Source: Sphingomonas abietis (GTDB lineage: Bacteria; Pseudomonadota; Alphaproteobacteria; Sphingomonadales; Sphingomonadaceae). Taken from it: a stretch of DNA of 64,000 bases. Shown piece after piece: positions 46,106-64,000 of this stretch. The stretch is from contig NZ_CP115174.1 of NCBI RefSeq assembly GCF_027625475.1, forward strand, positions 3,073,001 to 3,137,000. Reading direction: 5' to 3'. The stretch's first letter is position 1, and the number at the start of each line of letters is the position of its first letter. The notes below the pieces were generated by a model. It made no database searches. It saw nothing but the letters and a program-made list of their open reading frames with translations, and was not told the DNA's origin. The position numbers were made by a program, and so were the translations under genes.

Positions 46106-46176
46106 CCTGTCGCGATGCCGCTCACGTTGACGCGGCGCGGAAGCGAGCAGAGAGGCGATGACATTATGGCCGATGG

Positions 46177-46190
46177 CGCCACTGCTTGGC
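46177..46190 (+). promoter_or_regulatory. Candidate PspF upstream activating site (PspC-like operon)
   Basis: CGCCACTGCTTGGC. The same framework, CGCCANNNCTTGGC, occurs at 63895 upstream of the promoter divergent from pspF. Here it begins 80 bases before the -24 GG of the sigma-54 core; there it begins 83 bases before. The arms (CGCCA and TGGCG when one more base is included) are an inverted repeat. Confidence 0.5.
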
Positions 46191-46240
46191 GGATTTCACC
46201 AACCGCAAATTCGGGTCGCGACCGAGAAACCGCGGAACCT

Positions 46241-46271
46241 GGGCTTTCCGGCATTTGGCACGCCCCCTGCA
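46241..46271 (+). promoter_or_regulatory. Sigma-54 promoter of the PspC-like/DUF922 operon
   Basis: TGGCACGCCCCCTGCA (46256-46271) fits the sigma-54 consensus TGGCACG-N4-TTGC with one mismatch; the -24 GG is at 46257-46258 and the -12 GC at 46269-46270, with normal spacing. The flank GGGCTTTCC (46241-46249) is also found at the same distance in the promoter at 63962. Expected transcription start is about 46281-46283. This core needs an AAA+ activator, and PspF is encoded 17 kb away. Confidence 0.8.
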
Positions 46272-46325
46272 ATATCGGAGGCATGACAGCGGGCAAGCCC
46301 CCGCACGAAAGACGGAGCACCCACG

Positions 46326-46622
46326 ATGTCCCACAGCGCAGCCCCCGAAACCGCCGCCAAGAAAGACAATCTGCTCGGCATCTGCCACGCCATCGGCGAG
46401 GATTTCGGCTTCAATCCCTTCCTGCTGCGCGTGTCGCTCGCGGTGGCGATCATCTTCAGCCCCGAATGGACGCTCGCCGCCTATGCCGCGATGGGCGTCG
46501 CGGTGCTCGCGAGCCGCCTGCTGGTCCGGACGCCCCGCAAGGCCAAGCCGCAGCCGAGCGCCGCCACGGCCGTCATCCCGGTGCCGATCGAGGATGGACG
46601 GGAATTGGCTCTGGCCGCGTGA
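46326..46622 (+). CDS. PspC-domain-like small membrane protein
   Basis: 98 residues. 'NLLGICHAIGEDFGFNPFLLRVSLAVAIIFSPEWTLAAYAAMGVAVLASRLLVR' follows the PspC domain pattern (GVCAGIAxYFGxxxxLVRLxxVLxxLF...YxxxWxxLP): a helical hairpin with one or two membrane crossings. PspC proteins sense or transmit envelope damage in the phage-shock response. The 30 residue tail after the membrane part is basic then acidic. GGAG lies before the ATG. It is driven by the sigma-54 promoter at 46256 and is followed after 18 bases by the DUF922 gene. Calling it PspC is good at the domain level; it is far from the main psp cluster. Confidence 0.78.
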   Translation: MSHSAAPETAAKKDNLLGICHAIGEDFGFNPFLLRVSLAVAIIFSPEWTLAAYAAMGVAVLASRLLVRTPRKAKPQPSAATAVIPVPIEDGRELALAA

Positions 46623-46639: not shown

Positions 46640-47182
46640 ATGCTCCCGCTGATCGCCGCGCTGCTGCTTTCGTCGTCCGTCGATCCTCTCGCCGGGATCG
46701 ATGGACTGCACATCGCCTATTACGACGTGCGAGGAAACAGCTGGCCGGCGATCGGCCGCTCCATCGCCACGCAAGGCATGGGCCGCGCCGGAGGCCTGGA
46801 AATCGCGGCGCGCACGAGCTGGCGAGTGCGCTGGCAGGCCGATTCGCTGGTGTCGGGCAAGAGCTGCCGCGTCGTCGGCGCCAAGCTCGATTATGCGATC
46901 ACCGTCATGCTGCCGCGCCTGCGCGATCAGGACCGCCTCGATCCCGCGCTCCGCCGGCGCTGGCAGACCTATCTCGGCGAGTTGAAGGCGCATGAGGCGG
47001 GCCATGCCCGCTACGCCTCGCTCCATATCGACGACGTGAAGCGCGCGGTGCTGGCCAGCGACTGCGCGCATGTCCGCCAGAATGGGCAGCACGCGATCGA
47101 TGCGATCAACCGCTGGGAAACCCGCTACGACATGCTGACCCGGCACGGCGCGATGCAATCCAAGGCACCGCCCGTCCGATAA
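46640..47182 (+). CDS. DUF922 secreted zinc-dependent protease
   Basis: 180 residues. A short signal peptide (MLPLIAALLLSSSVDPLAG) is followed by the DUF922 pattern: 'YYDVRGNSWPAIGRSIATQG' near the start (the 'Y.v.g.t..el...i...GP' motif of the family), 'ARTSWRVRWQ' and the metalloprotease motif HEAGH (H118, E119, H122) in 'LKAHEAGHARYASLHID'. Such proteins are predicted extracytoplasmic Zn peptidases. It starts 18 bases after the PspC-like gene, so it is probably on the same sigma-54-dependent transcript. Confidence 0.8.
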   Translation: MLPLIAALLLSSSVDPLAGIDGLHIAYYDVRGNSWPAIGRSIATQGMGRAGGLEIAARTSWRVRWQADSLVSGKSCRVVGAKLDYAITVMLPRLRDQDRLDPALRRRWQTYLGELKAHEAGHARYASLHIDDVKRAVLASDCAHVRQNGQHAIDAINRWETRYDMLTRHGAMQSKAPPVR

Positions 47183-62847: not shown

Positions 62848-63873
62848 TCAACTGGCGCGTTCCAGCAGATCGTGGCGCCGCAGCGCATGGCGCAACTGGT
62901 CGTAGGTCAGCGACAACGCCGCCGCCGTCGTCCGCTGGTTGAAACGACAGCGCTTGAGCGCCGCTTCGAGCAATTTCCGCTCATAGGCCTCGCAGGCCGC
63001 CTTGAAGTCGTTGATCTCGGGCTCCTCGACCACCGCGACGGGCCGAGCCGGGCCGGGCTCCGCCGTCATCGCCGGCTTGGCGGCAGCGCCCTGCGGCCGC
63101 CATGGCGAAGCGAAGGGGTCGAATTCGATCGCGTCGATCGGCCGATCGAGATCGGTCCAGCGATAGACCGCACGTTCGATCACGTTGCGCAGTTCACGGA
63201 CATTGCCCGGCCATTCATAGCCGACCAGCGTCGCCATCGCCTTGGCGCCGAAGCCGGGAAAGCGCGGCCAGTCGAGCTCGGCGGCCATCCGCCGGCCGAA
63301 ATGTTCGGCCAGCACCGGAATGTCGCCCTCGCGATGGCGCAGCGGCGGCAGCGTCACCACCTCGAACGAGAGCCGATCGAGCAGATCCGCGCGGAACCGC
63401 CCCTGCTCCACCAGCGCCGGCAGATGCTCGTTGGTCGCCGCCACGATGCGGACATCCACCCGGATCGCGCGAGAAGAACCGATCCGCGTCACCTCGCCAT
63501 ATTCGACCGCGCGCAGCAGCCGCTCCTGCGCGCCCGACGAGAGCGTCGCCAGCTCGTCGAGGAACAATGTGCCGCCGTCGGCCTCCTCGAAGCGCCCCGC
63601 CCGCGCCTTGGTGGCGCCGGTGAAGGCGCCCGCCTCATGCCCGAACAATTCCGCCTCAATCAGCGTCTCGGGCAGCGCCGCGCAGTTGAGCGTCACCAGC
63701 GACCCAGCCCAGCGCGGCGAGAGATGGTGGAGACGCTCGGCGATCAGCTCCTTGCCGGTGCCGCGTTCGCCGATCACCAGCACCGGCCGGTTCAGCGTCG
63801 CGGCGCGGCTGGCACGCTCGACGGCGTCGAGAAAGGCGGTCGATTCGCCGATGAACTTGGTGTCGCGATCCAT
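62848..63873 (-). CDS. pspF: Sigma-54-dependent activator PspF
   Basis: 341 residues from ATG 63873; a longer frame to 63993 would run into the divergent promoter. There is no N-terminal receiver or GAF domain, as in PspF. The AAA+ domain has Walker A 'GERGTGKE' (35-42), 'GHEAGAFTGA' with the GAFTGA loop (82-87), and 'DGGTLFLDELATLSS'. A Fis-type HTH lies at the end ('RCRFNQRTTAAALSLTYDQLRHALRRHDLL'). PspF activates sigma-54 promoters in the phage-shock (envelope stress) response and is held off by PspA. The divergent sigma-54 promoter at 63977 leads out of the window, where a pspA operon is expected. Confidence 0.92.
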   Translation of the reverse strand: MDRDTKFIGESTAFLDAVERASRAATLNRPVLVIGERGTGKELIAERLHHLSPRWAGSLVTLNCAALPETLIEAELFGHEAGAFTGATKARAGRFEEADGGTLFLDELATLSSGAQERLLRAVEYGEVTRIGSSRAIRVDVRIVAATNEHLPALVEQGRFRADLLDRLSFEVVTLPPLRHREGDIPVLAEHFGRRMAAELDWPRFPGFGAKAMATLVGYEWPGNVRELRNVIERAVYRWTDLDRPIDAIEFDPFASPWRPQGAAAKPAMTAEPGPARPVAVVEEPEINDFKAACEAYERKLLEAALKRCRFNQRTTAAALSLTYDQLRHALRRHDLLERAS

Positions 63874-63894
63874 GGCCGCGGAGTTGGGACAATT

Positions 63895-63908
63895 CGCCAA
63901 CACTTGGC
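63895..63908 (+). promoter_or_regulatory. Candidate PspF upstream activating site (pspA side)
   Basis: CGCCAACACTTGGC, an inverted repeat (GCCAA-CAC-TTGGC). It matches the framework at 46177 (CGCCANNNCTTGGC) and begins 83 bases before the -24 GG of the promoter at 63977. It lies just upstream of the pspF start on the other strand, so PspF could also repress its own gene here. Confidence 0.55.
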
Positions 63909-63961
63909 AAGAGGCGCGACGTGCCTTGCCGTTATAAGACAGCAGAAAATGGCAGAAAATC

Positions 63962-63992
63962 GGGCTTTCCAAAAATTGGCACGCTCTCTGCA
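63962..63992 (+). promoter_or_regulatory. Sigma-54 promoter divergent from pspF (expected pspA operon)
   Basis: TGGCACGCTCTCTGCA (63977-63992) matches the sigma-54 consensus with one mismatch; -24 GG at 63978-63979, -12 GC at 63990-63991. It shares GGGCTTTCC (63962-63970) and TTGGCACG at the same spacing with the promoter at 46241. The start site and the gene it serves lie beyond the window. Confidence 0.85.
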
Positions 63993-64000
63993 AAGCTGTT

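Follow-up and report, generated by a model that had tools for sequence, protein, structure and literature searches.

The two loci considered here lie in a window of 64,000 nucleotides, the whole stretch of Sphingomonas abietis DNA that was analysed (Table 1). At the first of them a small PspC-like gene is followed, after a gap of 17 bp and on the same strand, by a gene of the DUF922 family; at the other, pspF is divergent from pspA, pspB and pspC, which lie just past the window end, downstream of a promoter at 63962. PspF, PspA, PspB and PspC all score above their NCBI equivalog cut-offs, and the genome encodes one RpoN (Sigma54_DBD, E = 2.7e-67). The small protein matches Pfam PspC (PF04024) marginally, with 25.9 bits against a cut-off of 25, and its 23.2 bits against the NCBIfam equivalog TIGR02978 fall below the cut-off of 104; hence we call it PspC-like and not PspC. 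Ten genomes of the genus contain 29 PspC-domain genes, which in the present analysis were labelled as three classes: class A lies within the pspA operon (10/10 genomes), class B is a short orphan with a sigma-54 core some 240 bp upstream (10/10) and class C, to which the gene in the window belongs, comprises nine genes in eight of the ten genomes.

Table 1. Features of the PspC-like and pspF-pspA loci (positions are those of the window)
Feature	Position	Strand	Remarks
Weak second site-like repeat ATGGCCGATGGCGCCAC, speculative	46166..46182	+	20 bp further upstream; agrees with the first consensus at 10/14 positions
PspF-type upstream activator site TTGGCGGATTTCACCAA, PspC-like promoter	46186..46202	+	ends 53 bp before the -24 element; score 21.9
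GGGCTTTCC flank of the PspC-like promoter, within a longer element that precedes the -24 box	46241..46249	+	33 bases ahead of the core, p = 0.0015
Sigma-54 core TGGCACG-N5-TGC (-24/-12), PspC-like gene	46256..46270	+	one base off consensus
Gene for a 98-residue PspC-like protein (orphan, class C)	46326..46622	+	ends -ALAA
DUF922 gene; 180-residue product that starts hydrophobic and has an HExxH motif	46640..47182	+	Pfam DUF922 111.9 bits, cut-off 27
pspF, sigma-54 activator	62848..63873	-	NCBIfam TIGR02974 487.3 bits, cut-off 443.55
PspF-type activator site TTGGGACAATTCGCCAA, pspA promoter	63884..63900	+	ends 76 bp before the -24 element; score 22.2
GGGCTTTCC flank of the pspA promoter	63962..63970	+	
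Sigma-54 core of the pspA promoter	63977..63991	+	

An initial sequence-only reading of this DNA had described the promoters of the two loci as twins that share the same blocks with the same spacings. The pattern GGGCTTTCC-N5-TTGGCACG-N4-CTGCAA does occur exactly, on the plus strand, at 46241-46272 and 63962-63993, but the spacing before CTGCAA is four bases, as in the search pattern which that reading proposed, and not the five of its description. No match was found in 100 dinucleotide shuffles, even when up to three mismatches were allowed. The genome-wide search which that reading had proposed bore it out: in the 4.43-Mb genome the pattern without its last AA is exact at the twins only, and one more site appears at three mismatches. 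The core of the PspC-like promoter has zero mismatches to YTGGCACG-N4-YTGC and is one of 13 such cores in the whole genome. The core by itself was dropped as evidence, since with one mismatch allowed it occurs at 131 places in the genome, against 229 in a reversed control.

It had further been argued that the likeness of the twins extends beyond the core and that this reflects shared control by PspF. The likeness does exceed the core. In 24 promoters from other genera, whose selection is described below, the 33 bases that lead up to the -24 box have a common consensus, roughly AAnGGCnGAATTCCGCCATTTTTCnAGT, and GGGCTTTCC aligns with its right half. Many Sphingomonadaceae promoters (L132-L156) carry at a fixed distance before the -24 box a partly palindromic GGCnGAATTCCGCC followed by ATTTTTC, which in the window occupies 46234-46255 and 63950-63976. 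As an argument for PspF, however, the flank fails. Among the 13 cores of the genome the element reaches p < 0.01 at four, namely the twins, the class B promoter and C1:4050400 (L025/L052; G000, minus strand); the last of these has both core and flank but is without the activator repeat to which we turn below, so the flank does not identify PspF and was rejected as its mark. The gene at C1:4050400 has an exported-protein-type start and is divergent from an adjoining NtrC-type response regulator. The original argument had also been made to depend on the presence of the flank before the orthologous genes of relatives, and there it is present but only loosely kept, with scores from -43 to +12 at the 29 class C loci that have a strong core. 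The flank element is a mark of certain sigma-54 promoters and not of PspF.

A more specific element was revealed by a comparison of the pspF-pspA spacers of the ten genus genomes, most of which have kept an inverted repeat of the form TTGG-N9-CCAA. Our first consensus for this site had been taken from the window's own two promoters, so that its agreement with them at 14/14 positions was circular, and it was therefore replaced by a matrix built from the 24 promoters of other genera. These came from an order-wide pattern search that had matches in 83 of 396 genomes and from which 30 places were examined together with their loci. Psp genes stand at 21 of the 30, of which 17 are orphan PspC genes (16 of them beside recF) and four are pspF-pspA loci, one (L127) from another family; the remaining nine (L128-L131, L139, L140, L143, L144 and L146) are without a detected Psp gene. 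The training set consists of the 17 orphan PspC promoters, three pspF-pspA promoters and four without a detected Psp gene, L143 having been excluded beforehand as it resembles coding sequence. The 16 loci of other genera in which an orphan PspC gene and the promoter module adjoin recF are L132-L136, L138, L141, L142, L145, L147 and L151-L156.

With this independent matrix, none of 4000 random positions in the same genome reached the scores of the two sites in the window. A whole-genome search for the repeat together with a core returned exactly two places, the twin promoters. Across the genus the same search gave 13 places in seven of the ten genomes and none in the reversed control; all but one of the 13 lie at pspF-pspA or PspC-like loci. 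The exception (L125, G005:C1:1841047-1841152, minus strand) has no detected Psp gene beside it and could be either a further target or a chance match. Among the 13 zero-mismatch cores of S. abietis a strong repeat accompanies the twins only; the highest-scoring repeat at the remaining 11 (p = 0.0067) belongs to the class B PspC gene.

When the matrix was applied to the 4.7-kb psp region of Escherichia coli, its top match was TTAGTGTAATTCGCTAA, in the pspF-pspA spacer, and a second repeat, in the start region of pspF, came fifth in the ranking. We take these two repeats for the PspF sites of E. coli; their distances from the core are 64 and 84 bp, a step of 20 bp, and the step between the speculative repeat at the PspC-like promoter and the stronger site next to it is the same. 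In the available text on the E. coli regulon, the pspA promoter is described as having two PspF sites and that of pspG as having one (PMC3709507). A site model for PspF in which TTGG-N9-CCAA stands about 53, 64, 74 or 85 bp upstream of the core suits both the sphingomonads and E. coli.

In the genus, as judged with the independent matrices, a core is present at all ten pspA promoters and the repeat scores above 14 at nine of them. All ten class B promoters likewise have a core, with a repeat above 5 in five genomes (1.9 for the copy in S. abietis itself), and the class C genes have a core in 8/9 cases and a repeat above 8 in 6/9; the exception is a class C paralogue of genome G005 that lacks a proper core. 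The third PspC-domain gene of the S. abietis genome (L103, G000:C1:4310402-4310548, minus strand) has a zero-mismatch sigma-54 core upstream and a weak activator site, and a short open reading frame with an exported-type start precedes the PspC gene.

The family provides a broader sample. Class C has a match in 56 of its 298 genomes, and we assembled 43 distinct class C upstream regions (25 named and 24 family loci minus six duplicates), four of which are genus members also included in the counts above. Some form of core precedes the gene at 41/43 loci, against 43 of 1566 control windows, and a strong one at 29. The complete module of repeat and core, defined by a combined score above 10, is found at 34 of the 43 loci and in none of the 1566 controls, the best of which reached 9.2; 25 loci exceed a score of 20, and the best score in 980 shuffles was 7.5. 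Of the nine loci below the module score, most come from a single Sphingomonas group whose core is of the TTGGCAT type and which has no clear repeat. The 22 class C repeats that score at least 5 are located 54, 62-65, 73-75 or 83-86 bp from the core, a distribution that fits a 10.5-bp period with a nominal p of about 5e-7, which, like the other p-values, is optimistic because the loci are related. At these four spacings the repeats would all fall on one face of the helix, and the retention of the module by 34 of 43 loci in spite of spacing shifts in helical steps argues for selection. PspF is encoded by every one of the 56 genomes that have class C, but this is weak evidence, since 280 of the 298 family genomes possess it; the presence or absence of PspF was set aside as too weak a test.

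The sequences show directly the core and the repeat, how they are spaced and conserved, and that PspF, PspA, PspB, PspC and RpoN are all encoded. From these we consider it highly likely that the PspF regulon includes the PspC-like gene as a second transcription unit, unlinked to the first. When the membrane is stressed, PspF would be released from PspA and bind TTGG-N9-CCAA at 46186-46202, where it could contact the RpoN-polymerase poised at the core (46256-46270) and so fire transcription of the PspC-like gene, with the DUF922 gene behind it probably transcribed as well. The proposal, already made in the sequence-only reading, that PspF drives both of the twin promoters is strengthened by the PspF-type site common to them, strong at only two of 13 cores, and by the persistence of the module in the class C loci; very probably it is correct.

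Part of the original reasoning, that PspF is the only visible sigma-54 activator, holds within the window but not genome-wide, where the activator domain occurs at 12 places, seven of them strong. With six strong domains besides PspF to choose from, the PspC-like promoter might be driven by another activator and its likeness to the pspA promoter might reflect no more than a general sphingomonad style of sigma-54 promoter. That C1:4050400, which stands beside an NtrC-type regulator and is devoid of the repeat, shares the flank would suit such a reading. The repeat, however, unlike the flank, is strong at the twins only among the 13 perfect cores and matches the pspF-pspA spacer of E. coli, and we regard control by another activator as improbable. 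Less probable still, to the point that we give it very little credence, is that the promoter is a silent relic, a non-working copy of the pspA control region. Some relatives have indeed lost the repeat, but core and repeat are both intact here, and most of the class C loci retain the module although the distance between its parts has moved by helical steps.

Control by PspF would make this locus a variant of a familiar arrangement. As in E. coli and Yersinia, where the PspF regulon consists of the pspA operon and the unlinked pspG, PspF is divergent from pspA, the promoters combine a sigma-54 core with inverted-repeat activator sites (in E. coli two, 20 bp apart) and there is a second, unlinked promoter of PspF type, as for pspG. 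The unlinked target here, however, is a PspC-like protein and not PspG, and the genus has in addition a second class of orphan PspC behind a sigma-54 core. In the available portions of the E. coli literature, no target of PspF beyond the pspA operon is said to be known except pspG (PMC9239133), and the output of PspF, the pspA operon and pspG, is called extremely restricted (PMC3467454); a role of PspF in the Psp response is stated to have been described only for the Enterobacteriaceae. The accessible part of a comparative genomic account reports that PspC genes outside operons, and in multiple copies, are common and leaves their role open (PMC9239133). The genes considered here are orphans as well, but that part of the account does not include their promoters, whereas here a regulator is proposed. 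A table row names PspC in Novosphingobium (PMC5443232, seen in part). The literature covered, from which subscription journals are mostly absent, yielded no account of orphan PspC genes under PspF control. The picture is that of the known Psp response with a larger output: the PspF stress switch, to judge from its predicted sites, probably controls more genes than in the gut bacteria on which our knowledge of it was built. The stray class C PspC genes, tied to a PspF-type promoter, and the second class, tied to sigma-54 cores, would become a concrete regulon.

The C-termini of the class C proteins add a further feature. Length and tail are variable, with endings in -LAA, -IAA, -QAA, -VAA or -RAA, and a terminal -AA is found at 39 of the 43 loci and in 104 of 120 homologues among the matches listed, of 1827; the background, taken from a crude set of long open reading frames, is 2/166. 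The class A proteins of the genus end in EIDSLR and those of class B in R, each in 10/10 genomes. The final -AA of class C is a candidate degradation tag. The degradation signals of the ssrA tag and of CtrA also end in -AA, and class C resembles them in its variable tail with a final -AA; the available text on the Caulobacter protein states that CtrA is stabilised when its C-terminal alanines are altered (PMC4433202). The candidate tag in class C differs in that it sits on a membrane protein, and the protease reported for PspC is FtsH, which is described as degrading PspC in the absence of PspB (PMC3467454, in part). One might go on to imagine, as a tentative idea that we think somewhat doubtful, that in the sphingomonads the phage-shock response has been rewired so that PspF commands several loci, the unlinked ones supplying additional PspC proteins. 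One class of these would follow a short exported peptide and the other, which includes the gene in the window, would have a built-in -AA degradation tag, so that PspF would yield a self-clearing PspC-like pulse that competes with or tunes the canonical PspB/PspC under stress.

The place of the DUF922 gene in this scheme is a separate question. Its product is predicted to be a secreted zinc protease: DUF922 (PF06037) is a predicted zincin metalloprotease family, entered as probable in the available part of PMC3650047, and both the domain and the HExxH motif, in the form HEAGH, are likewise found here, the activity being predicted from the sequence. A sequence search for a DUF922 relative of solved structure gave no credible match (best E = 0.27). 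Given the 17-bp gap, the gene is probably cotranscribed with the PspC-like gene, and co-regulation of the two is plausible. The suggestion that the protease belongs to the envelope-stress regulon nonetheless fares less well than the rest of the sequence-only reading. The gene was found in only one of the ten genus genomes, and among 84 stretches around class A, B and C loci, most of which extend 1.5 kb to each side only, tblastn detected DUF922 in four. Two of these are the present locus itself and the others, from S. ginsenosidimutans (L165) and S. adhaesiva (L174), have the gene upstream of the PspC-like promoter. With a gene so rare, and elsewhere upstream of the promoter, its membership of the regulon is argued from this locus. 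That DUF922 is a passenger with no functional part in the envelope-stress response, which would be compatible with PspF control of the PspC-like gene, has in our estimate an even chance: its rarity and its position in L165 and L174 speak for it, and the shared strand and short gap here, together with the fact that it adjoins class C in two other Sphingomonas species, speak against it.

The pspF-pspA locus itself can also be more elaborate, as in genome G004 (L122), where the space separating pspF from pspA holds an extra gene with an exported-type start and its own repeat and core, and where a second promoter of this repeat-and-core kind serves pspA.
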